Origin: a virus
Virus record (IMG/VR): IMGVR_UViG_3300043427_002950
Location: 62,001-126,000 of that record
Strand: one strand, 5' to 3'
Length of the DNA: 64,000 nt
The notes beneath the pieces are model-generated. The model saw only the letters and a list, made by a program, of their open reading frames with translations. It was not told where the DNA came from and did no database searches. Each line of letters starts with the position of its first letter. The stretch's first letter is position 1. This document shows positions 16,983-62,179 of this stretch, piece by piece. The position numbers were made by a program, and so were the translations under genes.

Positions 16983-19900
16983 ATGGCAAAAAATTACCTA
17001 AGCAATCGTCAACGCAGAGTTAATATTGGTATTGTTTCATATACGGAAAATGAAACAGTACTGTCGATTGCTGCTGGTAAAGTTGGAGTAGGAACAAATA
17101 ATGCAATATTAGATTTACATGTAGAAGGAAAAGGATATTTTTCAGATGCAGTTGCAATAGGAACAGAAACTCCTCAGGGAGCTGCTTTATGGGTCGATGG
17201 AGATGGATATTTTACGGGGGTAGTTACTGCAAGAACATTTTTTGCAGGTCCAACAGAAATTACTGGGGGGCAAATTGTTGATGAAGCTGCAATTCAAAAG
17301 TTAAGGACACAAACCTTATTTGTTGCTGGAATTACAACATTTTTAAATGGAACTGTAAGTATTGGAGTAGGAACTGGAGTAACAACTGGAACACCAAATC
17401 AGTTATTTCAAGTTTATAGTGGAGCATATATTAATGGTTCTGTAGGAATAGGAACAACTATTGTATATTCCGACTCCAAATTACATGTTGCTGGCAGTTT
17501 GAAATTAGACGGAACAGTATACGATAAAGATGGATTTGGTGGGAATTTAGATGACCTTCTTTATTCAAATGGCGATGGAACTGTTTCTTGGAAAACTGCT
17601 TTACAAGGTACTCAGGGTACTCAAGGTCTTCAAGGCGCATTAAGTAATTTTCAAGGAACTCAGGGTGTTCAAGGAGTTCAAGGTCTCCAAGGTAATCAGG
17701 GAGTTCAAGGTCTTCAAGGTCTTCAAGGACACCAGGGAACTCAAGGAGTTCAAGGATTGCAAGGAAATCAGGGAGTTCAAGGTCTTCAAGGTCTTCAAGG
17801 ACACCAGGGAACTCAAGGAGTTCAAGGAGTTCAAGGTCTCCAAGGTAATCAGGGAGTTCAAGGTCTTCAAGGTCTTCAAGGACACCAGGGAACTCAAGGA
17901 GTTCAAGGATTGCAAGGAGATCAAGGTGTTCAAGGTCTTCAGGGAAATCAAGGAGTCCAGGGAACACAAGGTCTTCAGGGTTTCCAAGGAAATCAGGGAG
18001 TTCAAGGTCTTCAAGGTCTTCAAGGACACCAGGGAACTCAAGGAGTTCAAGGATTGCAAGGAGATCAAGGTGTTCAAGGTCTTCAAGGTCTTCAAGGACA
18101 CCAGGGAACTCAAGGAGTTCAAGGATTGCAAGGAGATCAAGGTGTTCAAGGTCTTCAAGGTCTTCAAGGACACCAGGGAACTCAAGGAGTTCAAGGATTG
18201 CAAGGAGATCAAGGTGTTCAAGGTCTTCAGGGAAATCAAGGAGTCCAGGGAACACAAGGTCTTCAGGGTTTCCAAGGAAATCAGGGAGTTCAAGGAATAC
18301 AAGGTCTTCAGGGAAATCAAGGAGTTCAAGGTCTTCAAGGAAATCAGGGAGTCCAGGGAGTCCAGGGAGTCCAAGGTCTCCAGGGAAATCAAGGAGTTCA
18401 AGGTCTTCAAGGAAATCAGGGAGTCCAGGGAGTCCAGGGAGTCCAAGGTCTCCAAGGAAATCAGGGACTCCAAGGCAATCAGGGAGTCCAGGGAGTCCAA
18501 GGTCTTCAGGGAAATCAAGGAGTTCAAGGAACTCAGGGACTCCAAGGCAATCAGGGAGTCCAGGGAGTCCAAGGTCTTCAGGGAAATCAAGGAGTTCAAG
18601 GAACTCAGGGACTCCAAGGCAATCAGGGAGTCCAGGGAGTCCAAGGTCTTCAGGGAAATCAAGGAGTTCAAGGAACCCAAGGTCTTCAAGGCAATCAAGG
18701 AGTTCAAGGAACACAAGGTCTTCAAGGTAATCAAGGAGTCCAAGGAACCCAAGGTCTTCAAGGCAATCAAGGAGTTCAGGGCAATCAAGGAACCCAAGGT
18801 GTTCAGGGTTTACAAGGAAATCAAGGAGTTCAAGGAAATCAGGGACTCCAAGGTAATCAAGGAGTTCAAGGAACTCAGGGACTCCAAGGTAATCAAGGAG
18901 TTCAAGGAACTCAGGGACTCCAAGGTAATCAAGGAGTACAAGGAACACAAGGTCTTCAAGGTAATCAAGGAGTTCAAGGTCTTCAAGGTAATCAAGGAGT
19001 CCAGGGAACTCAGGGACTTCAAGGTAATCAAGGAGTTCAAGGAAATCAGGGAGTCCAAGGAATACAAGGTCTTCAAGGTTTCCAAGGTGTCCAAGGTGTT
19101 CAAGGTCTCCAAGGAAATCAGGGAGTCCAAGGAATACAAGGTCTTCAAGGTTTCCAAGGTGTCCAAGGTGTTCAAGGTCTCCAAGGAAATCAGGGAGTCC
19201 AAGGAATACAAGGTCTTCAAGGTTTCCAAGGTGTCCAAGGTGTTCAAGGTCTCCAAGGAAATCAAGGTGTTCAAGGTGTTCAAGGTCTCCAAGGTTTCCA
19301 AGGAACTCAAGGAACCCAAGGAGTTCAAGGTCTTCAAGGAAATCAGGGAGTTCAAGGAACACAAGGTCTTCAAGGTTTCCAAGGTGTTCAAGGAACACAA
19401 GGACTTCAGGGGAATCAGGGAGTTCAAGGAACACAAGGTCTTCAAGGTTTCCAAGGTGTTCAAGGAACACAAGGACTTCAGGGGAATCAGGGAGTTCAAG
19501 GAACACAAGGTCTTCAAGGTTTCCAAGGCGTTCAGGGTGTCCAAGGATTACAGGGAAATCAAGGAGTCCAAGGTCTCCAAGGAAATCAGGGAGTTCAAGG
19601 TGTTCAAGGAACTCAGGGTCTCCAAGGCAATCAAGGGGTTCAAGGAACACAGGGTCTTCAAGGTTTCCAAGGTGCTCAAGGAACTCAGGGTGTACAAGGT
19701 CTCCAGGGAAATCAGGGAGTTCAAGGAACTCAGGGATTACAAGGAAATCAGGGAGTTCAAGGTGTTCAGGGTCTCCAGGGAAATCAGGGAGTTCAAGGAG
19801 TTCAAGGTCTCCAAGGAAATCAAGGAGTTCAAGGTGTTCAAGGAACCCAAGGTCTCCAAGGCAATCAAGGAGTCCAAGGTGTCCAAGGTGTCCAAGGATT

Positions 19901-21524
19901 ACAAGGAAATCAGGGAGTCCAAGGTGCCCAAGGATTACAAGGAAATCAGGGAGTCCAAGGTGTCCAAGGATTACAAGGAAATCAGGGAGTCCAAGGTGTC
20001 CAAGGTCTCCAGGGAAATCAAGGAGTTCAAGGTGTTCAAGGAACCCAAGGTCTCCAGGGAAATCAGGGAGTTCAAGGAACTCAGGGATTACAAGGAAATC
20101 AGGGAGTTCAAGGAGTTCAAGGTCTCCAAGGAAATCAAGGAGTTCAAGGTGTTCAAGGAACCCAAGGTCTCCAAGGCAATCAAGGAGTTCAAGGAGTTCA
20201 AGGTGTTCAGGGTCTCCAAGGAAATCAGGGAGTTCAAGGTGTTCAAGGAACCCAAGGTCTCCAAGGTAATCAAGGAGTTCAAGGAGTTCAAGGTCTCCAA
20301 GGAAATCAAGGTGTCCAAGGTGTCCAAGGAAATCAGGGTGTCCAAGGTGTTCAAGGTCTTCAAGGAAATCAGGGTGTCCAAGGTGTTCAAGGTCTTCAAG
20401 GAAATCAGGGTGTCCAAGGTGTTCAAGGTCTCCAGGGAGTTCAAGGAAATCAAGGAGTTCAGGGAGTCCAAGGTCTCCAAGGTAATCAAGGTGTTCAAGG
20501 TCTTCAAGGAAATCAGGGTGTCCAAGGTGTCCAAGGTCTCCAGGGAGTTCAAGGTCTCCAAGGTGTTCAAGGTCTTCAAGGAAATCAGGGAGTCCAAGGT
20601 GTCCAAGGTCTTCAAGGAAATCAAGGAGTTCAAGGTGTCCAAGGGCTCCAAGGAAATCAAGGAGTTCAAGGTGTCCAAGGTGTCCAAGGATTACAAGGAA
20701 ATCAGGGAGTCCAAGGTGTCCAAGGTGTTCAAGGTCTCCAAGGAAATCAAGGAGTTCAAGGTGTCCAAGGTGTCCAAGGATTACAAGGAAATCAGGGAGT
20801 CCAAGGTGTCCAAGGATTACAAGGAAATCAGGGTGTTCAAGGCGTTCAAGGTCTTCAAGGAAATCAGGGAGTCCAAGGTGTCCAAGGATTACAAGGAAAT
20901 CAGGGTGTTCAAGGCGTTCAAGGTCTTCAAGGAAATCAGGGAGTCCAAGGTGTTCAAGGTTTACAAGGAAATCAGGGAGTTCAAGCAACTCAAGGACTCC
21001 AGGGTGTTCAAGGATTGCAAGGTCTTCAAGGCGCACTTAGCAATTTCCAGGGAACACAAGGAACACAAGGAAATCAGGGATTACAAGGAACACAAGGAAA
21101 ACAAGTATCAATTCCAGATCAAACAGTCATAATTGCATTTGAAGAGGTGTTTGATGGGTCTAGAACTACATTTACTCCATATGATAAAGTATTATTTGCA
21201 AATCAAGGATATTCTGTTGGATCTGGAAATCTTGCACGATTCATAAATAATGAGATAGACAGTTTGGCAAGATTTATACTTTCTGTCGGTGGAATTATTC
21301 AAGAACCAGATCCATCAAATAATCGTGGATTTAACACCAATCAAATTGGTGGTGGTGGAAATAATAAAGCAGCAGACCCAATTACTATCGCATTTGTTGA
21401 GGCACCAAAAGTTACAGATTCCTTCTTTGGGTATGCTGTTAAATCTACAAATTCCCCAACAAATATAAATCAATTTGGAACAGTTACAGATTCTATAGTT
21501 TATTCAATCATATTCGGAGTATAA
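16983..21524 (+). CDS. Very long collagen-like (Gly-X-Gln) tail fibre protein (cassette 2)
   Basis: 1513 aa. Residues 1-205 carry fibre motifs of the type VGVGTNNAILDLHVEG, VSIGVGTG and VGIGTT, ending with DDLLYSNGDGTVSWKTALQG. From about 207 to 1375 the protein is an almost uninterrupted (Gly-X-Gln) array of roughly 380 triplets with X mostly Val, Leu, Asn or Thr, flanked at both ends by a GALSNFQG interruption. The C-terminal about 135 aa (ISIPDQTVIIAFEEVF-like start, IGGGGNNKAADPITIAFVEA) is a globular cap. This predicts a fibre far longer than the cassette-1 homologue. No proline occurs in the array. Virion surface fibre by family. Confidence 0.85.
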   Translation: MAKNYLSNRQRRVNIGIVSYTENETVLSIAAGKVGVGTNNAILDLHVEGKGYFSDAVAIGTETPQGAALWVDGDGYFTGVVTARTFFAGPTEITGGQIVDEAAIQKLRTQTLFVAGITTFLNGTVSIGVGTGVTTGTPNQLFQVYSGAYINGSVGIGTTIVYSDSKLHVAGSLKLDGTVYDKDGFGGNLDDLLYSNGDGTVSWKTALQGTQGTQGLQGALSNFQGTQGVQGVQGLQGNQGVQGLQGLQGHQGTQGVQGLQGNQGVQGLQGLQGHQGTQGVQGVQGLQGNQGVQGLQGLQGHQGTQGVQGLQGDQGVQGLQGNQGVQGTQGLQGFQGNQGVQGLQGLQGHQGTQGVQGLQGDQGVQGLQGLQGHQGTQGVQGLQGDQGVQGLQGLQGHQGTQGVQGLQGDQGVQGLQGNQGVQGTQGLQGFQGNQGVQGIQGLQGNQGVQGLQGNQGVQGVQGVQGLQGNQGVQGLQGNQGVQGVQGVQGLQGNQGLQGNQGVQGVQGLQGNQGVQGTQGLQGNQGVQGVQGLQGNQGVQGTQGLQGNQGVQGVQGLQGNQGVQGTQGLQGNQGVQGTQGLQGNQGVQGTQGLQGNQGVQGNQGTQGVQGLQGNQGVQGNQGLQGNQGVQGTQGLQGNQGVQGTQGLQGNQGVQGTQGLQGNQGVQGLQGNQGVQGTQGLQGNQGVQGNQGVQGIQGLQGFQGVQGVQGLQGNQGVQGIQGLQGFQGVQGVQGLQGNQGVQGIQGLQGFQGVQGVQGLQGNQGVQGVQGLQGFQGTQGTQGVQGLQGNQGVQGTQGLQGFQGVQGTQGLQGNQGVQGTQGLQGFQGVQGTQGLQGNQGVQGTQGLQGFQGVQGVQGLQGNQGVQGLQGNQGVQGVQGTQGLQGNQGVQGTQGLQGFQGAQGTQGVQGLQGNQGVQGTQGLQGNQGVQGVQGLQGNQGVQGVQGLQGNQGVQGVQGTQGLQGNQGVQGVQGVQGLQGNQGVQGAQGLQGNQGVQGVQGLQGNQGVQGVQGLQGNQGVQGVQGTQGLQGNQGVQGTQGLQGNQGVQGVQGLQGNQGVQGVQGTQGLQGNQGVQGVQGVQGLQGNQGVQGVQGTQGLQGNQGVQGVQGLQGNQGVQGVQGNQGVQGVQGLQGNQGVQGVQGLQGNQGVQGVQGLQGVQGNQGVQGVQGLQGNQGVQGLQGNQGVQGVQGLQGVQGLQGVQGLQGNQGVQGVQGLQGNQGVQGVQGLQGNQGVQGVQGVQGLQGNQGVQGVQGVQGLQGNQGVQGVQGVQGLQGNQGVQGVQGLQGNQGVQGVQGLQGNQGVQGVQGLQGNQGVQGVQGLQGNQGVQGVQGLQGNQGVQATQGLQGVQGLQGLQGALSNFQGTQGTQGNQGLQGTQGKQVSIPDQTVIIAFEEVFDGSRTTFTPYDKVLFANQGYSVGSGNLARFINNEIDSLARFILSVGGIIQEPDPSNNRGFNTNQIGGGGNNKAADPITIAFVEAPKVTDSFFGYAVKSTNSPTNINQFGTVTDSIVYSIIFGV
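17606..21105 (+). repeat. 3.5-kb array of 9-bp units encoding Gly-X-Gln
   Basis: CAAGGNNNN units tile this stretch with very few breaks. Higher-order units (27, 63, 72 nt) recur, for example a three-copy 72-nt tandem at 19056-19271. The array keeps several other frames free of stops on both strands, which creates long false ORFs. Confidence 0.95.
19056..19271 (+). repeat. Three tandem 72-bp units within the collagen array
   Basis: Units begin at 19056, 19128 and 19200. The first two are identical over 72 bp and the third matches for 63 bp before diverging. Each encodes the same eight triplets starting QGI. The identity at synonymous positions points to recent duplication. Confidence 0.85.
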
Positions 21525-26662: not shown

Positions 26663-27658
26663 ATGACTGTAGATCCAAATAATCTGGTAAAACTTGCTAT
26701 TCAAAATGGAGGAAGTATTCATCCTCTTGTTATTCCATCTAAAGATTTAAAGGGTCCAGCTTTAATGAACCCTTCAATTTATGTGGATGGGGATAAAATT
26801 TGGGTAAATCTTAGAAATATTAATTACACATTATATCATTCAGAAACAAAAAAGTTTGAGCATCATTGGGGTCCTTTAGTTTATATTCATCCAGAAAATG
26901 ATCTTCGTCTTCGCACATGGAATATTATGTGTGAACTTGATGAGGACATGAGAATCAAAAAATACCATCATATTGATACGACAAAATTTCCCAATAAAGA
27001 ACTTTGGGATTTTGTTGGGTTAGAAGATGTTCGTATTTTTAGATGGGAAGGAAAATTTTATACTTGTGGAGTTAGACGAGATTTAGAAACCACAGGTATT
27101 GGTAGAATGGAACTATGTGAACTTGAGATTGGTGATGGATATGTAAAAGAAATAAATCAAATTCGTATTCCTACCCCTGGAAATGATGATTCTTATTGCG
27201 AGAAAAATTGGATGCCAATTCTCGATATGCCATATCACTTCTTAAAGTGGACTAATGGAACTGAAATTGTAAAATATGATTTAGAATCTAAAAAAACAGA
27301 AAAAGTTGTCTCACATCATTGGAAAGATCTTGGATGTATTGATCTTCGTGGAGGATCTCAAGTTCTTAGGTTTGATGAAAAGCATAGATTTTGTTTAACA
27401 CATGAAACATTTTTAACTCAAAGTCCTCATTATAGAAAAGATGGAACTTACAGACATAGATTTGTTGTCTTTGATGAAGATTGGAACATTGTTAAAGTTT
27501 CTAAAAGATTCTCATTTTTGAATGCGGAAATAGAATTTGCAGTTGGAATGACTGAATATAAAGAAGATTATCTAATTACTTTTGGATTTCAAGATAATGC
27601 ATCATATCTTTTAAAAGCATCTAAGGAATTTGTTAAAAATTATATTTTTGAGGATTGA
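26663..27658 (+). CDS. Beta-propeller glycosidase-like protein (GH43/GH130 type)
   Basis: 331 aa with about five repeated blade-like segments. GLEDVRIFRWEGKFYTCGVR (about 118-137) resembles the E-D-x-R-I catalytic region of GH130-like phosphorylases. Other blade motifs are EKNWMPILDMPYHFLKW (about 180-196) and DLRGGSQVLRFDEKHRFCLT (about 230-249). Such folds act on glycosidic bonds or phosphorolytic sugar substrates; activity here is unproven. It heads a run of carbohydrate- and lipid-related genes, supporting a role in modifying host or virion glycans. Confidence 0.6.
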   Translation: MTVDPNNLVKLAIQNGGSIHPLVIPSKDLKGPALMNPSIYVDGDKIWVNLRNINYTLYHSETKKFEHHWGPLVYIHPENDLRLRTWNIMCELDEDMRIKKYHHIDTTKFPNKELWDFVGLEDVRIFRWEGKFYTCGVRRDLETTGIGRMELCELEIGDGYVKEINQIRIPTPGNDDSYCEKNWMPILDMPYHFLKWTNGTEIVKYDLESKKTEKVVSHHWKDLGCIDLRGGSQVLRFDEKHRFCLTHETFLTQSPHYRKDGTYRHRFVVFDEDWNIVKVSKRFSFLNAEIEFAVGMTEYKEDYLITFGFQDNASYLLKASKEFVKNYIFED

Positions 27659-27660
27659 TT

Positions 27661-28779
27661 ATGAATATCATTATCCCAATGGCGGGACTTGGTAGTAGGT
27701 TTTCTAAAAATGGAATTAAAACACCTAAACCTTTGATTAAAGTTAATGGAAAAACTCTTATTGAACATTCTGTAGAATCTCTTGGTATTCCTGGAAGATA
27801 TATTTTCATTACCCGAAATTATGAAGATCCTCAATACAATGAAGAACTGACAAAGATTCTTAAAAAATTAGATCCAAATTGTGAAGAAATTCGCATTGAT
27901 AATGTTACAAGTGGATGCAGTGAAACTTGTCTTTATGCAAAGCATTTAATTGATAATGAAGAAGAGTTGATTATTACGAATTGCGATCAACTCATGGATT
28001 GGGATCCTAATGCTTTTTTGGAAGAAGTCTCAGACAATCTTTCCGTAGATGGAGCAGTTGTATTATTTAAATCAAAAGATCCTAAAAATAGTTTTGCTAA
28101 AATTAAAGAAAATTATACTAATGGATGCAAAATTGTAAAGATTGTGGAAAAAGATCCAATTAGTGATAATGCTCTTGTTGGAATACATTATTGGGCAAGA
28201 GGAAAAGATTTTGTAGAGTCTTCTGAAAATTTACTTAAACATTTTAGAATAAGTGGACTTCCAGAATGTTATATCTCAGAAACTTATAATTATTTGATTG
28301 AAAGAAATTATTCTATTGTTCCATTTTTTATTCCCAAAAATAGTTATATTCCATTAGGAACTCCCGAAGATGTTTCAATTTATCTTGGAAAGTTAAAGGA
28401 ATTTTATACAAATAAACCAAAAACAATTTTTTGTGATTTGGATGGAACAGTGTTAAAACACTGTCATAAATTTAGTGATCTAAATCAAATTGATCCAGAA
28501 GTTCTTCCTGGAGTTAATAATAAATTTAATGAATGGGATTCTAAAGGATATAAAATTATTTTAACAACTGCTAGAAAAGAATCTGCCAGAGAAATGACAG
28601 AGAATCATCTTAAATCTCTGGGAATATGTTGGGATCATTTGATTATGGGTGTTTCTAGTGGAGTTAGAGTTTTAATCAATGATAAACTCAAAGATGAAGA
28701 CAACGATAGATCTGTAGCAATTAATTTAATTACTGACTCTGGATTTGATAGTGTTGATTGGGAGAAATATAATCTATGA
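27661..28779 (+). CDS. Nucleotidyltransferase - HAD phosphatase fusion
   Basis: 372 aa from the ATG at 27661 (GAGG about 7 bp upstream). An in-frame TTG 6 bp earlier is less likely. Residues 1-235 are a sugar-nucleotidyltransferase fold: IIPMAGLGSRFSKNG (G-x-G-x-R loop), PKPLIKVNGK, and NCDQLMDWDP as a metal-binding segment. From about 256, FCDLDGTVLKH is a HAD motif I, followed by ILTTARKESAREMTE (motif II, T/R type) and GVRVLINDKL. It would make an activated sugar or alcohol and hydrolyse a phosphate intermediate. Its ATGA overlap with the cupin gene supports one pathway. Confidence 0.75.
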   Translation: MNIIIPMAGLGSRFSKNGIKTPKPLIKVNGKTLIEHSVESLGIPGRYIFITRNYEDPQYNEELTKILKKLDPNCEEIRIDNVTSGCSETCLYAKHLIDNEEELIITNCDQLMDWDPNAFLEEVSDNLSVDGAVVLFKSKDPKNSFAKIKENYTNGCKIVKIVEKDPISDNALVGIHYWARGKDFVESSENLLKHFRISGLPECYISETYNYLIERNYSIVPFFIPKNSYIPLGTPEDVSIYLGKLKEFYTNKPKTIFCDLDGTVLKHCHKFSDLNQIDPEVLPGVNNKFNEWDSKGYKIILTTARKESAREMTENHLKSLGICWDHLIMGVSSGVRVLINDKLKDEDNDRSVAINLITDSGFDSVDWEKYNL

Positions 28780-41045: not shown

Positions 41046-42230
41046 ATGAACTACGATTTCCCCCAAATTGAAACCATCGAAGATGTCCTTGATGATATCA
41101 ATGGATACGATGAAATCCGTGTGATGGCTAAGGGCGATTACACCGTTATCAATTATGCTGTTGCATTTGAAGAAACTTTTGCATGGGATTTAGAAGATCC
41201 TCATGCATCTTCAATTCGTCGGGAATGTCGTGGTTTGATCTTTAACAAGGAAGGGAAACTGATTTCCCGTCCATACCATAAGTTCTTCAATGCTGGCGAG
41301 AAAGAAGAAACCCAGTTGAATAAGATCAATCTGTATGAACCTCATGTGGTTCTGGAGAAACTGGATGGTAGTATGATCCGTCCGATTCCAACTGCTGATG
41401 GATTTGTTCTTGCAACCAAAGCTGGAGTTACTGATATTGCTCAGCAGGCAGAAGAATTCATTGCTGATAAACCTGAATACACTGAGTTTATTCGTTCTTC
41501 TATTGCTTGTGGGTTGACTCCTATTTTTGAGTGGTGCTCTCGTAAAAATCGTATTGTGATTGACTATCCCGAGGATCAATTGATTCTCACTGCTGTTAGG
41601 GACACTCTAAGTGGAACTTATGTCAATTATCCACTGATTGTTGAAACTGGTAAAAACTACGGCATTCCTGTAGTCAAAGCAGTGGATGGTCTTTCTGTCC
41701 AGAACATTGAACTATTTGTGAAACAGGTTCGTGAGTGGGAAGACAACGAGGGTATCGTTCTTCGGTTTGATACTGGTCATATGATCAAGGTCAAAGCAGA
41801 TGATTATATTCTGCGTCACAAGTCCAAGGAATCCATCAACCAGGAAAAAAATGTCATTCAGGTAGTCCTGGACGATGCTGTGGATGATATGATTCCCCTC
41901 TTAACTAAAGAGGATGCTGAACGACTAAAGAACTTCCAGAAAGCATTCTGGGACTCTGTGGAACACACCGCAATGGACATGAATGATCTTTACAATGCTG
42001 GAAATACCATGTATCCAGATAAAAAAGAATTTGCAGTGAACTTTGTTCAGAAGATGATTCTTCCATTCCATGCTCCTATCATGTATGCAATCCGAGGTGG
42101 ACGACCTACCATAGAAGTCATTAAAGAAATGATTCGCAAATCCCTTACTTCACAAGCAAAACTTAACGACAATCGGTGGCTGTGGGGGAACCTCGATTGG
42201 AACTATTCTAACGCAACCGCAGGAGAGTAA
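41046..42230 (+). CDS. rnlA: T4 RNA ligase 1-like RNA ligase
   Basis: 394 aa (T4 Rnl1 is 374). The nucleotidyl-transferase core is intact: upstream R-x-x-R-G-x-x-F (RECRGLIF, 59-66), the Rnl1-type HKFFNAGE (78-85), motif I LEKLDGS with nucleophile K105, motif IIIa/III around TPIFEWCS, motif IV EGIVLRF and motif V IKVKADDYI. It joins 5'-phosphate to 3'-hydroxyl RNA ends, typically repairing cleaved tRNA. It heads an operon with an HNH nuclease and a polynucleotide kinase, its usual partner. The promoter G lies directly upstream. Confidence 0.92.
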   Translation: MNYDFPQIETIEDVLDDINGYDEIRVMAKGDYTVINYAVAFEETFAWDLEDPHASSIRRECRGLIFNKEGKLISRPYHKFFNAGEKEETQLNKINLYEPHVVLEKLDGSMIRPIPTADGFVLATKAGVTDIAQQAEEFIADKPEYTEFIRSSIACGLTPIFEWCSRKNRIVIDYPEDQLILTAVRDTLSGTYVNYPLIVETGKNYGIPVVKAVDGLSVQNIELFVKQVREWEDNEGIVLRFDTGHMIKVKADDYILRHKSKESINQEKNVIQVVLDDAVDDMIPLLTKEDAERLKNFQKAFWDSVEHTAMDMNDLYNAGNTMYPDKKEFAVNFVQKMILPFHAPIMYAIRGGRPTIEVIKEMIRKSLTSQAKLNDNRWLWGNLDWNYSNATAGE

Positions 42231-42231
42231 A

Positions 42232-42708
42232 ATGCAACACTACCACATTTCCCCAAGAAGTCAGGTTCTTGTGCTCAATGCATCTTATGAACCAATCAAT
42301 CTCACAAATTGGAAACGTGCAATTGTCCTTGTCTTGAAGGAAAAGGCACAAGTTCTTTCTGCAAGAGTAATTCGTCTCGTTAATTACATCAAGATTCCTG
42401 TCGATCAATTTAGAAACATTCGTCCTTCACGGGATATGATCTATCGTAGAGACAATCATAAATGCCAATACTGTGGATCCACAAAGGGTCTTACGATTGA
42501 TCATGTTCTGCCAAAATCTAAAGGTGGCAAGGATACATGGGAAAACCTTGTGGTTGCATGTTCTACTTGCAACACTAAGAAAGGTGATAGATACCTGGAA
42601 CAAACTGGAATGAAACTTCAACGCATTCCCAAGGCACCTTATAACAAAGTCACACTGGCATTGAATTACAGTAATATCGAAGAATGGAGAGAGTACATGT
42701 ATGCCTAA
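42232..42708 (+). CDS. HNH endonuclease of cyanobacterial type
   Basis: 158 aa. The zinc and catalytic residues are C78-x2-C81 (CQYCG), D90-H91 (TIDHVLPKSKGG), N105 (WENLVVAC) and C110-x2-C113 (CSTCNTKKG). The N-terminal 70 aa (VLVLNASYEPINLTNWKRAI) match the stand-alone HNH family common in cyanobacteria and their phages, not a homing nuclease inside an intron. It lies 1 bp after RNA ligase and overlaps the kinase by 8 bp. A function in DNA packaging, nicking or host DNA breakdown is possible. Confidence 0.88.
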   Translation: MQHYHISPRSQVLVLNASYEPINLTNWKRAIVLVLKEKAQVLSARVIRLVNYIKIPVDQFRNIRPSRDMIYRRDNHKCQYCGSTKGLTIDHVLPKSKGGKDTWENLVVACSTCNTKKGDRYLEQTGMKLQRIPKAPYNKVTLALNYSNIEEWREYMYA

Positions 42709-43201
42709 TCTTGTAATGATGTGTGGGATTCCAGCATCTGGAAAATCAACGTATATACAACAAGGTTTGGATTATACTGATTTTTTCAATACTGGATACA
42801 CTTTTCTCTCCACTGATAACTACATTGAAGAAAAAGCAAAGAAAGAAGGAACAACTTACAATGAAATCTTTGATCGTACAATCAAAGAAGCAACTGAAGA
42901 AATGAATAAACTTCTTGAGTTTGCCGTTCAAAATAACATGAGTATTGTTTGGGACCAGACCAATCTGACTCCAAAGGTAAGGCAAAAGAAACTCAAAAAG
43001 ATTCCAGAGCATTACACTAAAGTTGCTGTCTACAGCAATATTTCTCTTGAAGAGGCAATGAAACGCAATAGAAAGAGAACTGGAAAGGTCGTTCCACAAC
43101 GAGTGCTAATTCAAATGCACTCCGTTTTTGTCCCTCCCACTGAAGACGAGGGATTTGATAAAGTTATTCAATTTGGAGAACAACATGAAATGCAAAGTTA
43201 A
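42701..43201 (+). CDS. Polynucleotide 5'-kinase (PNK kinase domain)
   Basis: 166 aa. The P-loop is GIPASGKS (9-16). STDNY (37-41) places the catalytic Asp as in T4 Pnkp. The lid-like basic region is AMKRNRKRTGKVVPQRVL. T4 Pnkp is 301 aa with a C-terminal 3'-phosphatase; here only the kinase domain is present, so 3' end healing would need another enzyme. The metallophosphoesterase at 43840 is a possible, unproven, candidate. Operon with RNA ligase 1 supports an RNA repair role. Confidence 0.85.
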   Translation: MPNLVMMCGIPASGKSTYIQQGLDYTDFFNTGYTFLSTDNYIEEKAKKEGTTYNEIFDRTIKEATEEMNKLLEFAVQNNMSIVWDQTNLTPKVRQKKLKKIPEHYTKVAVYSNISLEEAMKRNRKRTGKVVPQRVLIQMHSVFVPPTEDEGFDKVIQFGEQHEMQS

Positions 43202-45368: not shown

Positions 45369-45378
45369 GGTGAGCATC

Positions 45379-45834
45379 ATGAAGCTCATCATCGAAGGAT
45401 CAGAAGACGATAAGGTTCTTCATCGCAAAGCAAGAAGAGTCGATAAGATTGATGATACCATTCGCACAATCTGTGTTAGAATGGAAGAGTTGATGCTTCA
45501 ACACAATGGAGTTGGAATCTCTGGAAATCAAGTTGGTCTTTTAAAAAGAATCATTGTCATATCAGATGGCAATAAAATTATTCATATGATTAATCCAGAG
45601 ATTGCAATTGCTCCAAATGAATGGGAAATGGGAGAAGAGGGATGTCTGAGTCTTCCCCAAACCTTTATACATAAAAAAAGATTAAAGACAGTCAAAGTCA
45701 AATATAGGGATCGTAAAGGAAAACCACATATTGAAGAGTATAGTGGATTGACGGCTCGTGTGATACAACACGAAATCGATCATTTAGATGGCATTTTAAT
45801 GATAGAAGAAAATGAACCGCAAAAATACAGCTAG
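45379..45834 (+). CDS. def: Peptide deformylase
   Basis: 151 aa from ATG 45379 (GAGG 8 bp upstream); GTG at 45370 is alternative. Motif I GVGISGNQ (44-51), motif II EGCLS (87-91) with the metal Cys, motif III HEIDH (131-135) with both His ligands and catalytic Glu. All active-site residues are present. The enzyme removes the N-formyl group from nascent proteins. Cyanophage deformylases have been proposed to help D1/photosystem II protein turnover during infection; that role is from family knowledge. It overlaps the ligase-fold gene by 23 bp. Confidence 0.93.
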   Translation: MKLIIEGSEDDKVLHRKARRVDKIDDTIRTICVRMEELMLQHNGVGISGNQVGLLKRIIVISDGNKIIHMINPEIAIAPNEWEMGEEGCLSLPQTFIHKKRLKTVKVKYRDRKGKPHIEEYSGLTARVIQHEIDHLDGILMIEENEPQKYS

Positions 45835-46798
45835 AATCGGAACAATTACGCAGATCGAAGAAATCGAAGATAATAACGATTTTGTAATTGGTTTTATTGA
45901 TAAAGGATGGCAAGTTGTTTTTGAAAAGGGCAATTATAACGTCAACGATAAGGTTACTTTCATTCCTTCTGGTTCCTGGGTTCCAGATGAATTACTTCCA
46001 ATTATTGATGCTCAGAAATATAAGGGTGTCAAGGGTGGATATCTTACTGTCATGAAACGTGGTGGACATATTTCAGAGGGAATTGTTTTAGACGCAGACA
46101 AATATAACGACAATTTGGAAGTTCGTATTTGGGAAAGAGACCTTCCCGAAGAATTTGAATGTAAAGACTATCGAACATATCCATCTTTTATTCCAAAAAT
46201 TGAGTATTCATATGCTCAAGATATTGCGGAATCAATATTCACTGATCATTATTCAGAATCATTTGAAATTACTCCAAGACTTGATGGAGTTGAAATGACT
46301 GTTTATGTTAAGAATGGAAGATTTGGTTTGTGCTCAGAGAAATATGATATTACTGAAACAACAGATAATGCATTCTGGAAGTTTGCAAGACAACTGAATC
46401 TGATTGATCCAATGATTAACTATCGTGATCAGTATGCAATTCATGGAACAATCGTTGGTGAAGGAATTTACTCAAATCATGAACGAGTGTATGGTGAAAG
46501 GAAGTTCTACATTCACGACATTTACGACATTGAAAAGTCCGCTTTTTCTACATCGAAAGAAAGATATCAGATATTTTCCGACCTTGCAGAGTATTGTAAA
46601 TTTGATCATGTAGGCATTTTTAAACACTCTATGCCTCTGTTTGAAGTTGCATCAAACATTAGAGAACTGGTTAATTATGCAAATGGTCCTTCAATGTCAC
46701 CATTGACAAAAAGAAAGGGTTTGATCTTCAAGTCAAATGATTCTGACTTTAAATTTAAAGTAAAGTCGAATAACTTCTGCATAGCCAATAAATTATGA
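45812..46798 (+). CDS. RNA-ligase-fold protein with substituted catalytic residues (probable pseudoenzyme)
   Basis: 328 aa. Residues 5-60 form an N-terminal OB-like domain (ARIGTITQIEEIEDNNDFVI). The nucleotidyltransferase fold follows, of Rnl2/DraRnl type. Motif I reads TPRLDGVEMTVYVKNGRFG: the nucleophilic Lys of K-x-D-G is Arg156 (AGA). Motif III-like HGTIVGEGIY has Thr213 where Glu is expected (Q-G-E). Motif IV reads KRKGLIFKS with Lys302 instead of Glu. Motif V KVKSNNF is near normal. The frame is intact and full length, so it is maintained, not decaying. It may bind RNA or nucleotides without ligating. It is coupled to peptide deformylase and followed by a glycosyltransferase-like gene. 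Confidence 0.8.
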   Translation: MNRKNTARIGTITQIEEIEDNNDFVIGFIDKGWQVVFEKGNYNVNDKVTFIPSGSWVPDELLPIIDAQKYKGVKGGYLTVMKRGGHISEGIVLDADKYNDNLEVRIWERDLPEEFECKDYRTYPSFIPKIEYSYAQDIAESIFTDHYSESFEITPRLDGVEMTVYVKNGRFGLCSEKYDITETTDNAFWKFARQLNLIDPMINYRDQYAIHGTIVGEGIYSNHERVYGERKFYIHDIYDIEKSAFSTSKERYQIFSDLAEYCKFDHVGIFKHSMPLFEVASNIRELVNYANGPSMSPLTKRKGLIFKSNDSDFKFKVKSNNFCIANKL

Positions 46799-47655
46799 AA
46801 ACACTTGTTATTTTAATCGGCACACCGAGAGGAAACGAGGTGGTTTGGAAGAGCATGTATGATCATCTTCTTAAACCATATAAAGCTCATCTTGCATTAT
46901 GTTTTGAGCAGCAGGAAGATAAAACTTCATCCTTATATTCTAAGGCCAAATATCTTTGGGAAGTTCCAAAATATGATAACTGGGAACAGTATTATTTGGA
47001 CAATGAAATTGAAGGTAATTGGAGGGAGATTTATGAGTGGTGTGAATATGAAGGAAATAACATTGGGTTTTCTGGAATCGGCAAATCAAAGGGATTTGGT
47101 TCTGGTGCAATCTTAGTTGCATTTAGGCATTATCTTTTAAATAACCATTTGGATACGATTCGGAAGTATGATCGTATTATTCTGACTCGATCTGATTACT
47201 TTTATTTGTTTGATCAACCAATTCTTGATAATGAATATTATTGGGTTCCGAAAGGTGAAACCTATGGTGGAATTACTGATAGATTTCAACAGTTCCCATC
47301 AAAATTTGCAGAGGAAGCATTAAATATCATGCACTATGTCTGCTCACCACAGATACTGCATGATTTCAAATATACTCAACGATTAATTAATATTGAAAGA
47401 GTAATTGCCAGATACTTTGATTCTATATCATTTGATTATTCAAATCGAATTAAAACATTCAATAGATCAAATGTTTTGGTAATGACAGAACAAGATGATA
47501 CCACAGGTAGTTCTCAAAGAGTTTGGCTTAGAGGTGGAAAATGGCCAATTCCAGGAATGGAAGGAATTCACGTTAAATATATTGATGAATGGCATCATGC
47601 TTTGCAAAATAGTTTTGTACACTATGTTGCGAACAAGTATAAGGACATGTTATAA
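46795..47655 (+). CDS. Putative glycosyltransferase-like protein
   Basis: 286 aa, overlapping the ligase-fold gene by 4 bp. The N-terminus MKTLVILIGTPRGNEVVWKS has a strand-loop of the nucleotide-sugar-binding type. RKYDRIILTRSDYFYLFDQP (about 123-142) resembles the R-x-D-x-x-Y segment of WavE/galactosyltransferase-like proteins also seen in the 1241-aa gene (AKMRTDQRYYDE). The C-terminus (VKYIDEWHHALQNSFVHYVA) is helical. Assignment is tentative. Confidence 0.5.
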   Translation: MKTLVILIGTPRGNEVVWKSMYDHLLKPYKAHLALCFEQQEDKTSSLYSKAKYLWEVPKYDNWEQYYLDNEIEGNWREIYEWCEYEGNNIGFSGIGKSKGFGSGAILVAFRHYLLNNHLDTIRKYDRIILTRSDYFYLFDQPILDNEYYWVPKGETYGGITDRFQQFPSKFAEEALNIMHYVCSPQILHDFKYTQRLINIERVIARYFDSISFDYSNRIKTFNRSNVLVMTEQDDTTGSSQRVWLRGGKWPIPGMEGIHVKYIDEWHHALQNSFVHYVANKYKDML

Positions 47656-59992: not shown

Positions 59993-62179
59993 ATGTCTGT
60001 CAACTACGAAGTCAAAGGTGGAATTGCCCGTGTGCTTGCCACAGAGAACCTGATCGTGGAGCACAAGCAATGTGACACCGCACAATTTAACGTTCAAACC
60101 CGTGTCCTGACTCTTCCCATGTGGGGAAAAGCAACTGATGAAGTGTTCGACCTTCTGGTTGCACACGAAGTTGGTCATGCTCTCTACACTCCTAACATCG
60201 ACTGGACGGAAACCCATAAGATTCCTCCTCAGTTTGTGAATGTGACTGAAGATGCTCGCATTGAGAAACTGATGAAACGTCGTTATGGTGGTCTTCCAAA
60301 GACCTTCTTCAAAGGATACCAGCAAATGCAGGATGATGATTTCTTCTGCCTTGAGAATGAAGATATTTCCAAGATGAATCTTGCAGATCGTGCCAACCTG
60401 CACTTCAAGATCGGCAACTTTGTTGATATTTCCTTCACTCCCGAAGAAGATGTCATCATTGATATGATTGATAAAGCAGAATCTTTTGATGATGCTCTGA
60501 ATGCTGCACAGGCACTCTATGATTATTGCAAACAGAAAAACCCTACTCCTCTGGATATATCCATTCAGGCGGACTACACTGAACAAGGTAGTGGTGGTGG
60601 TTCTCTGGAAGAACAACCTCCCAGTGATGCTGGTCAACAGCAACCAAAGGATGAAGGTAAATCTGAAGAATCGCAAGAATCTGAAGAATCCCAGGCACAT
60701 CCTTCTGCAGATTCCGATCAACCTTCCACTTCTGGTGAGAATGTGAAAGGTGCTGGAAACGATCCAAAGCAACCAGTTGATGAAGAGCCCAAGGTTCGCA
60801 CTGATGATATGCTTAAGAATAATCTTCGTGATCTTATCAATAAGAGCGCAAAGGATGCAGTGTATCTTGAGTTTCCGAATGTCAATCTGAAGAATCATGT
60901 AGTGGATACCAAGGATGTTCACAAGTTGATTGAATCTCACTTCAAAGCACAAGAACCTTCTACAAGTTATCTTTATCCTACTCCATTCAATGCTCCAGAT
61001 TCTGAGTATCAAAAATACAAGACAGAATCTGTGAAGGAAGTCAACTATCTGGTGAAAGAGTTTGAATGCCGCAAGGCAGCAGATTCTTATGCCCGTGCCA
61101 CAACTGCTCGCACTGGTATTCTTGACTGCACCAAACTGCATACCTACAAGTACAATGAGGATCTGTTCAAGAAAGTAACAACCATTCCTGATGGTAAGAA
61201 CCATGGTTTGGTGTTCATTTTGGATTGGTCTGGTTCGATGAGTAAAGTGATGCTTCAAACTCTGAAGCAACTTTACAATCTCATCTCTTTCTGCAAGAAG
61301 TGTGGTATTCCTTTTGATGTTTATGCTTTCACCAACAACTGGTCTGAAACTGCTTCTTCCATGGAACCAGAAAACAAAAATTACCAGATGAGGTTGGATC
61401 CCACCTTCAGTTTGATGAATTTCTTCTCCAGTAAGACATCATCGCGTGAACTTGAGAAGCAAATGCTTAACATCTGGAGGGTTGCATACAATTTCGATCA
61501 CTGGACTTGTTATGGTATTCCTTCTTCTATGCATCTGTCTGGAACTCCTTTGAATGAAACTATGATGTGTCTGAAAGAAATTCTTCCCCAGTTCCAGAAG
61601 AAGAACAATGTTCAAAAGGTTCATTGTATTCTTCTGACTGATGGTGAAGGTAATCCCCTTCAGTATTCCGTTCACATTAAAAAAGATTGGATTGATCCAG
61701 ATACCAATAGCAAGTTTGGTTATTGGGGCGTGAGGAGTATTTTCTATAGTGACAATCAGCACTATGTTCGTAATCGTGCCACTGGAAAAGTTTACAAGAT
61801 CAGGAACAATGCCTATCTTGCTCAAGATACTCTTCTGGAAGCTCTCCAGGATGAGTTTGTGAATGTCAATTTCATTGGTATTCGTATTCTTGAGAACGGA
61901 TTTGATGCTGGAAAGTTCATGGATTACTATGTGAATTTTGGTGAAAAGACCAAACTCATGACTGATTGGAAGAAAGAGAAGTCATTCTCCATTTCCGATT
62001 CTCCTTACAGTAAATACTTTGGTATTGCAATGGCAGGTATGGATAATCAAACTGATTATCTTTCGCAACTTGAGGAGAATGCAACCAAGATTCAGATTCG
62101 TAATGCAATGAAGAAGACCTTGACATCCAAGAAGATGAACAAGAAGATCCTCAACGAATTTGTCCAACTGATTGCCTGA
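59993..62179 (+). CDS. cobT: VWA-domain protein with N-terminal zinc-peptidase motif (cyanophage CobT-like)
   Basis: 728 aa. N-terminal zincin: HEVGH at 58-62 and the downstream E-D motif NVTEDARIEK (83-92). An acidic Ser/Gln/Glu linker spans about 200-265. The C-terminal VWA domain carries the MIDAS motif D-x-S-x-S in VFILDWSGSMSK (about 406-417) and LLTDGEG near 545. It resembles the VWA partner of MoxR ATPases, annotated CobT (cobaltochelatase subunit) in cyanophages. The HExxH makes a protease or metal-insertion role equally possible. The MoxR-type ATPase gene follows within 85 bp. GC content is higher than the virion genes. Confidence 0.82.
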   Translation: MSVNYEVKGGIARVLATENLIVEHKQCDTAQFNVQTRVLTLPMWGKATDEVFDLLVAHEVGHALYTPNIDWTETHKIPPQFVNVTEDARIEKLMKRRYGGLPKTFFKGYQQMQDDDFFCLENEDISKMNLADRANLHFKIGNFVDISFTPEEDVIIDMIDKAESFDDALNAAQALYDYCKQKNPTPLDISIQADYTEQGSGGGSLEEQPPSDAGQQQPKDEGKSEESQESEESQAHPSADSDQPSTSGENVKGAGNDPKQPVDEEPKVRTDDMLKNNLRDLINKSAKDAVYLEFPNVNLKNHVVDTKDVHKLIESHFKAQEPSTSYLYPTPFNAPDSEYQKYKTESVKEVNYLVKEFECRKAADSYARATTARTGILDCTKLHTYKYNEDLFKKVTTIPDGKNHGLVFILDWSGSMSKVMLQTLKQLYNLISFCKKCGIPFDVYAFTNNWSETASSMEPENKNYQMRLDPTFSLMNFFSSKTSSRELEKQMLNIWRVAYNFDHWTCYGIPSSMHLSGTPLNETMMCLKEILPQFQKKNNVQKVHCILLTDGEGNPLQYSVHIKKDWIDPDTNSKFGYWGVRSIFYSDNQHYVRNRATGKVYKIRNNAYLAQDTLLEALQDEFVNVNFIGIRILENGFDAGKFMDYYVNFGEKTKLMTDWKKEKSFSISDSPYSKYFGIAMAGMDNQTDYLSQLEENATKIQIRNAMKKTLTSKKMNKKILNEFVQLIA

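Follow-up and report, generated by a model that had tools for sequence, protein, structure and literature searches.

The DNA analysed here, a 64-kb stretch referred to throughout as the window, corresponds to bases 62001-126000 of an IMG/VR record of 127,876 bases that, from the usual size of such genomes, is probably incomplete. When the DNA at about 60-64 kb was compared with annotated phages, the nearest were Synechococcus myoviruses (70-74% identity), and the source is therefore taken to be a cyanophage. Outside the window the record carries six tRNA genes (Met CAT, Leu CAA, Ile TAT, Leu TAA, Thr TGT and Pro TGG) at G000:C1:47193-48140 (L240:7193-8140). The gene under study, P0001, is a frame of 328 uninterrupted codons with no stop and no indel; it overlaps the genes on both sides, at its start with the tail of a peptide deformylase gene and at its stop with the beginning of the following gene (ATGA; Table 1). 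That next gene encodes a 286-aa protein for which no match was found in GenBank phages and no good match to a family.

Six related records share the gene order Rnl1 - (HNH) - P-loop kinase - PNKP-type HAD phosphatase - Rnl5, a set that by analogy with T4-type systems could plausibly serve RNA repair, the kinase and phosphatase healing RNA ends and the ligases sealing them. The window phage carries Rnl1, HNH and kinase in the cluster order, with P0001 lying 2.6 kb downstream of the kinase, and neither the HAD phosphatase nor a canonical Rnl5 was found in the 127,876-base record. Alignment of the window Rnl1 with T4 Rnl1 showed motifs I (EKLDGS), III (FEW), IV (EGIV) and V (KVK) to be intact, so that this ligase is apparently active, as the first-pass annotation of the locus had proposed. 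The phage with the most similar Rnl1 (L144, 80%) has the cluster as far as the deformylase, and no copy of P0001 was found downstream of its deformylase; because of this absence the gene is either dispensable in the L144 lineage or located in its unsequenced part. At a separate locus (L151:8001-9808) Rnl1 was found in two pieces, which match query residues 1-195 and 198-388 and lie about 650 bases apart, as if split by an intron or an inserted element, with an HNH gene following the split Rnl1.

Table 1. Genes, domains and replaced residues at the P0001 locus (window coordinates, except for the related cluster loci).
Feature	Position	Strand	Basis or remark
T4 Rnl1-type RNA ligase, intact motifs	41046..42230	+	alignment to T4 Rnl1
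HNH endonuclease	42232..42708	+	adjoins Rnl1 in related phages too
P-loop (AAA_33) kinase, polynucleotide-kinase-like	42701..43201	+	
Peptide deformylase	45370..45834	+	directly upstream, overlaps P0001 start
P0001, 328-aa Rnl5-type ORF, putative pseudoligase	45812..46798	+	ORF list, profile/structure matches
N-terminal OB domain, residues 1-105	45812..46126	+	fold kept; many conserved polar residues replaced
Ile106 in NgrRnl Lys121 column	46127..46129	+	Lys in 89/92 homologues
Tyr134 in NgrRnl Arg149 column	46211..46213	+	Arg in 86/92 homologues
Arg156 for motif I nucleophilic Lys (K-x-D-G; NgrRnl Lys170)	46277..46279 (AGA)	+	K in 92/92 others
Val160-Glu161 for motif I Ser-Ser	46289..46294	+	alignment
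Glu176-Lys177 for motif Ia Arg-Asn	46337..46342	+	alignment
Thr213 for motif III Glu (NgrRnl Glu227)	46448..46450 (ACA)	+	E in 92/92 others
His235 for motif IIIa Phe/Tyr (adenine-stacking position)	46514..46516	+	alignment
Lys302 for motif IV Glu (NgrRnl Glu312)	46715..46717 (AAG)	+	E in 92/92, multiple alignment
Ile305 for motif IV Val (adenine sandwich, other side)	46724..46726	+	V in 92/92 others
Motif V, residues 315-318	46754..46765	+	Phe315, Lys316 (= NgrRnl Lys326) kept; Ile>Lys318
286-aa ORF	46795..47655	+	directly downstream, ATGA stop/start overlap; weak DUF7796 match
Conserved cyanophage cluster, related loci	L013:2903-7044, L147:8001-11939, L008, L010, L012, L016		

P0001 matched the profiles Pfam RNA_ligase (PF09414, E 6e-12), PHROG 968 RNA ligase (E 2e-32) and NCBIfam TIGR02306 (RNA_lig_DRB0094, E 8e-15), the last with 54.5 bits against an equivalog cut-off of 151.15 bits, by which rule it is not a bona fide member. 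Among solved structures it matched the Naegleria gruberi RNA ligase NgrRnl (phmmer, E 4e-37), an Rnl5-type enzyme (PDB 5COT, 5COU and the 6VT series) with which it shares the full-length fold. An AlphaFold2 model based on an alignment of 41 sequences reached a pLDDT of 93.9 and a pTM of 0.90, and Foldseek matched the model to NgrRnl over its full length (TM 0.90/0.87); because homologues in the alignment help AlphaFold to return the family fold, the model is evidence of compatibility with that fold and not proof of it. By full-length homology P0001 has the Rnl5 architecture of an N-terminal OB domain followed by a C-terminal nucleotidyltransferase domain. T4 RNA ligases 1 and 2 share with it the superfamily fold of the nucleotidyltransferase domain and differ in their accessory domains.

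The catalytic columns were assigned by phmmer alignment to NgrRnl, by MAFFT alignments and by 92 independent pairwise global alignments, with a comparison set of 92 further distinct homologues of phages, drawn from IMG/VR and from the GenBank phages. (The deposited NgrRnl chain is numbered one higher than the numbering used here, an offset taken to be a tag residue.) It had been proposed from the sequence that Arg156, Thr213 and Lys302 occupy the positions of the nucleophilic lysine and of the motif III and motif IV glutamates, and on this point the frame, the codons and all three kinds of alignment agree: K/E/E stands in these columns in all 92 other sequences of the multiple alignment, and in the pairwise alignments K lies opposite Arg156 in 92/92, E opposite Thr213 in 92/92 and E opposite Lys302 in 90/92. 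The unanimous pairing at Arg156 rules out that another lysine of P0001 aligns at the nucleophile position. A scan of bacterial and archaeal genomes yielded 14 distant homologues, each of which has K at the first site and E at the second; the third site, covered in 13 of the 14, is E in those.

What these residues do is known from NgrRnl, where structure 5COT shows Lys170 bonded to AMP, Mn held via waters by Asp172, Glu227 and Glu312, and Lys326 in contact with the AMP phosphate (PMC9931718). P0001 retains the equivalents of Asp172 and Lys326 (Asp158 and Lys316), as well as Lys307, and has Arg, Thr, Lys, Ile and Tyr for Lys170, Glu227, Glu312, Lys121 and Arg149, of which Lys121 and Arg149 are named as mutated residues in the titles of the 6VT-series entries. 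The losses thus extend beyond the three residues first noticed, to positions 106 and 134, to the two serines at 160-161, to motif Ia (in the 92 homologues Arg in 91 and the following Asn in 90) and to the adenine sandwich. The latter has been described for TbREL1 as a Phe of motif IIIa and a Val of motif IV (PMC4599027), and mapping from the motif positions suggests that the corresponding pair in P0001 is His235 and Ile305. Motif V, annotated as kept, is so at Phe315 and Lys316 but not at its isoleucine. On the evidence of the aligned columns, P0001 has therefore replaced the nucleophile, two of the three acids that bind metal, the Arg-Asn of motif Ia and both residues of the adenine sandwich. 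Unlike NgrRnl, it would be expected to have no ligase activity.

Steps 1 and 2 of ligation cannot proceed without the motif I lysine (PMC3514331), so that both should be dead in P0001, and mutation of the equivalent lysine in human C12orf29 (K57A) abolishes auto-AMPylation (PMC9931718). P0001 is thus very probably incapable of adenylylation. The first-pass annotation had gone further in stating that loss of the lysine alone abolishes ligation, which is too strong: MthRnl K97A retains full step-3 sealing of pre-adenylated ends, and T4 Rnl2 K35A, which likewise lacks the motif I lysine, retains it in part (PMC3514331). P0001 might by the same token be a ligase that no longer adenylylates itself and seals AppRNA made by another ligase, e.g. 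the neighbouring Rnl1, and the retention of Asp158, Lys307 and Lys316 would fit such an activity. However, the motif III and IV glutamates, the motif Ia Arg-Asn and the adenine sandwich, which would be expected to hold AppRNA and metal, are replaced, and both T4 Rnl1 K99A and the double mutant MthRnl K97A/K246A are inactive at all steps (PMC3514331). Because two metal acids, the motif Ia pair and the adenine sandwich have gone together with the lysine, sealing of this kind is quite improbable. Catalysis might instead have been relocated, as in WNK kinases, to one of two lysines that are new and sit in active-site motifs, Lys177 (motif Ia) and Lys302 (motif IV), and migrated catalytic lysines do occur in other enzyme families (PMC10211241). 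The metal ligands and ATP contacts of P0001 have been lost as well, however, which makes a new nucleophile extremely improbable. To our knowledge there is no precedent for a migrated nucleophilic lysine in nucleotidyltransferases.

The replacements at the active site are part of a much wider divergence. P0001 departs from the family at 41/76 of the columns with at least 90% conservation, compared with 17/74 for the worst of 90 homologues and a median of 1; for conserved polar columns the loss is 23/33, against at most 8/32 in any of the 90. In contrast, 74/81 of the family-wide hydrophobic columns are still hydrophobic, which is as good a retention as in the most divergent active homologues. 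When columns invariant in the 24 nearest homologues were scored by domain, the nucleotidyltransferase domain was found to keep 42 and lose 21, and the OB domain to keep 17 and lose 25 (replacements there include, family residue first, E52P, D54G, R77Y and Q89E); the OB domain, reported as kept, is therefore kept as a fold but not in its conserved columns. In a maximum-likelihood tree the end branch of P0001 is the longest (3.16 changes per column; median 0.2). The window Rnl1 is 55-70% identical to the Rnl1 of the six related phages, whereas P0001 is 35-36% identical to their Rnl5 proteins, which are 77-99% identical to one another; judged against the window Rnl1, the accelerated change is thus specific to the P0001 gene. 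The charge has also shifted, the net charge of the nucleotidyltransferase domain being 0 in P0001 and about -11 in its nearest relatives, a change confined to this domain; the whole protein stays acidic (pI 5.4).

The nearest relatives of P0001 by identity (35-39%) are the cyanophage Rnl5 ligases (Synechococcus phage S-CREM1 UYA57570.1; IMG/VR loci L008-L017, L039 and L040), which in several phages lie, like P0001, in the same cluster with Rnl1 and a kinase and which, unlike P0001, all keep K/R/E/E. In the tree P0001 falls beside or at the base of this group with weak support (82/66). The weak support for this place and the long branch would also fit a gene acquired horizontally from an old inactive family of other phages, with no loss of function in the present lineage, and its third codon positions are poor in G+C (0.27), although those of the downstream neighbour are similar (0.26). 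This origin nevertheless appears unlikely: the best matches by both identity and tree are cyanophage ligases, P0001 stands downstream of the same Rnl1-kinase cluster, and neither IMG/VR and the GenBank phages nor the scan of bacterial genomes yielded such an inactive family.

The pattern of loss could alternatively reflect a decaying gene, in which a ligase made redundant by the active Rnl1 nearby drifts without selection and has stayed open by chance. The long branch, the loss of conserved residues in all domains, the absence of the gene from the syntenic L144 and the failure to find relatives that carry it all point in this direction. A neutral codon model was run with 46-58% of residues changed, comparable to the near-invariant columns, of which P0001 has lost 26/46 (about 57%). 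At this level about 11 stops (9-13) are expected in 328 codons and P0001 has none, an outcome whose probability lies between about 3e-6 and 2e-4 according to the transition bias that is assumed. The overlaps with both neighbouring genes would not by themselves protect the middle of the frame, and the core hydrophobicity is as well preserved as in active homologues. Rejection of this null indicates that unconstrained drift is not the source of most of the divergence, although it does not date the loss of catalysis, which part of the divergence may predate; much of the divergence could have preceded or accompanied that loss. Decay without selection is accordingly an unlikely account of P0001.

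The 13 listed replacements require at least 21 base changes, with no indel, so that neither sequencing error, which is ruled out, nor a very recent loss explains the gene. Recent decay from a Lys/Glu/Glu copy, which the first-pass annotation had named as a counter-reading, does not fit this number or the length of the branch. Relatives sharing the substitutions were looked for in IMG/VR by octapeptide, conserved-peptide and alignment scans and none was found, in a scope that possibly left out the records closest to the source. The pattern R-L-D-G-x-x-M-T gave 20 matches, all unrelated to P0001, and G-T-x-x-G-E-G-I gave 45, none of them related; 11 related records held only canonical copies, and a scan with a gene near the window end (59993-62179) found no near relatives. 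Because no relative with the same substitutions was found, maintenance of the gene is supported indirectly, through rejection of neutral decay. We consider it probable that P0001 has been kept by selection.

P0001 combines a homologous fold with the absence of conserved catalytic residues, as pseudokinases and other pseudoenzymes do, and since it lacks the catalytic residues by which the Rnl5 family is defined it is best classified as a pseudoenzyme that has diverged from that family and has probably been retained. On balance it is likely that P0001 is a pseudoligase derived from an Rnl5-type nick-sealing ligase of cyanophage RNA-repair clusters and is still made as a correctly folded protein. 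The original proposal of a pseudoenzyme, perhaps sensing nucleotides, therefore holds in its first part, with the fold and core kept, the functional polar residues replaced and no stops; its second part is not favoured, because the contacts to the ATP phosphates, the metal and the adenine have all changed.

A role in binding RNA ends or a partner protein, in or around RNA repair, is tentatively favoured instead, because a folded protein with an OB domain and a cleft remains and its nucleotidyltransferase domain has a net charge of 0 where the nearest relatives have about -11. The cleft that once held metal and ATP has become less acidic and would in this case serve as a metal-independent binding surface, which we tentatively regard as the most likely mode of action. 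Binding to RNA is possible, although general RNA binding is not indicated because the total charge remains acidic. P0001 could act, for example, as a non-catalytic partner or decoy beside the active Rnl1 and kinase, and its rapid change would fit a role in an arms race, e.g. against a host defence that targets RNA. That the ligase has been retooled into such a fast-evolving RNA-end-binding or regulatory partner or decoy, for the phage's own RNA repair or against host RNA-targeting defence, is conceivable but somewhat doubtful.

Pseudoenzymes are well studied in kinases and proteases. In the literature searched, which did not include most subscription journals, no naturally occurring pseudoenzyme with the RNA-ligase fold was found. 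If functional, P0001 would show that an enzyme of RNA repair can be converted by a phage to a binding or regulatory function, and it offers a small, concrete target whose active relatives are well characterised for comparison.

Two further proteins of the window were noted. The region 27655-28779 encodes, in one 374-aa frame, a sugar-nucleotidyltransferase-like domain followed by a HAD-type phosphatase domain with a weak PNKP-like match. The region 16983-21524 encodes a 1513-aa protein consisting mostly of a collagen-like Gly-x-Gln repeat (GNQGVQGLQ), and the long antisense or shifted open frames that cover it (e.g. 17458-21036 on the minus strand) are by-products of the repeat.
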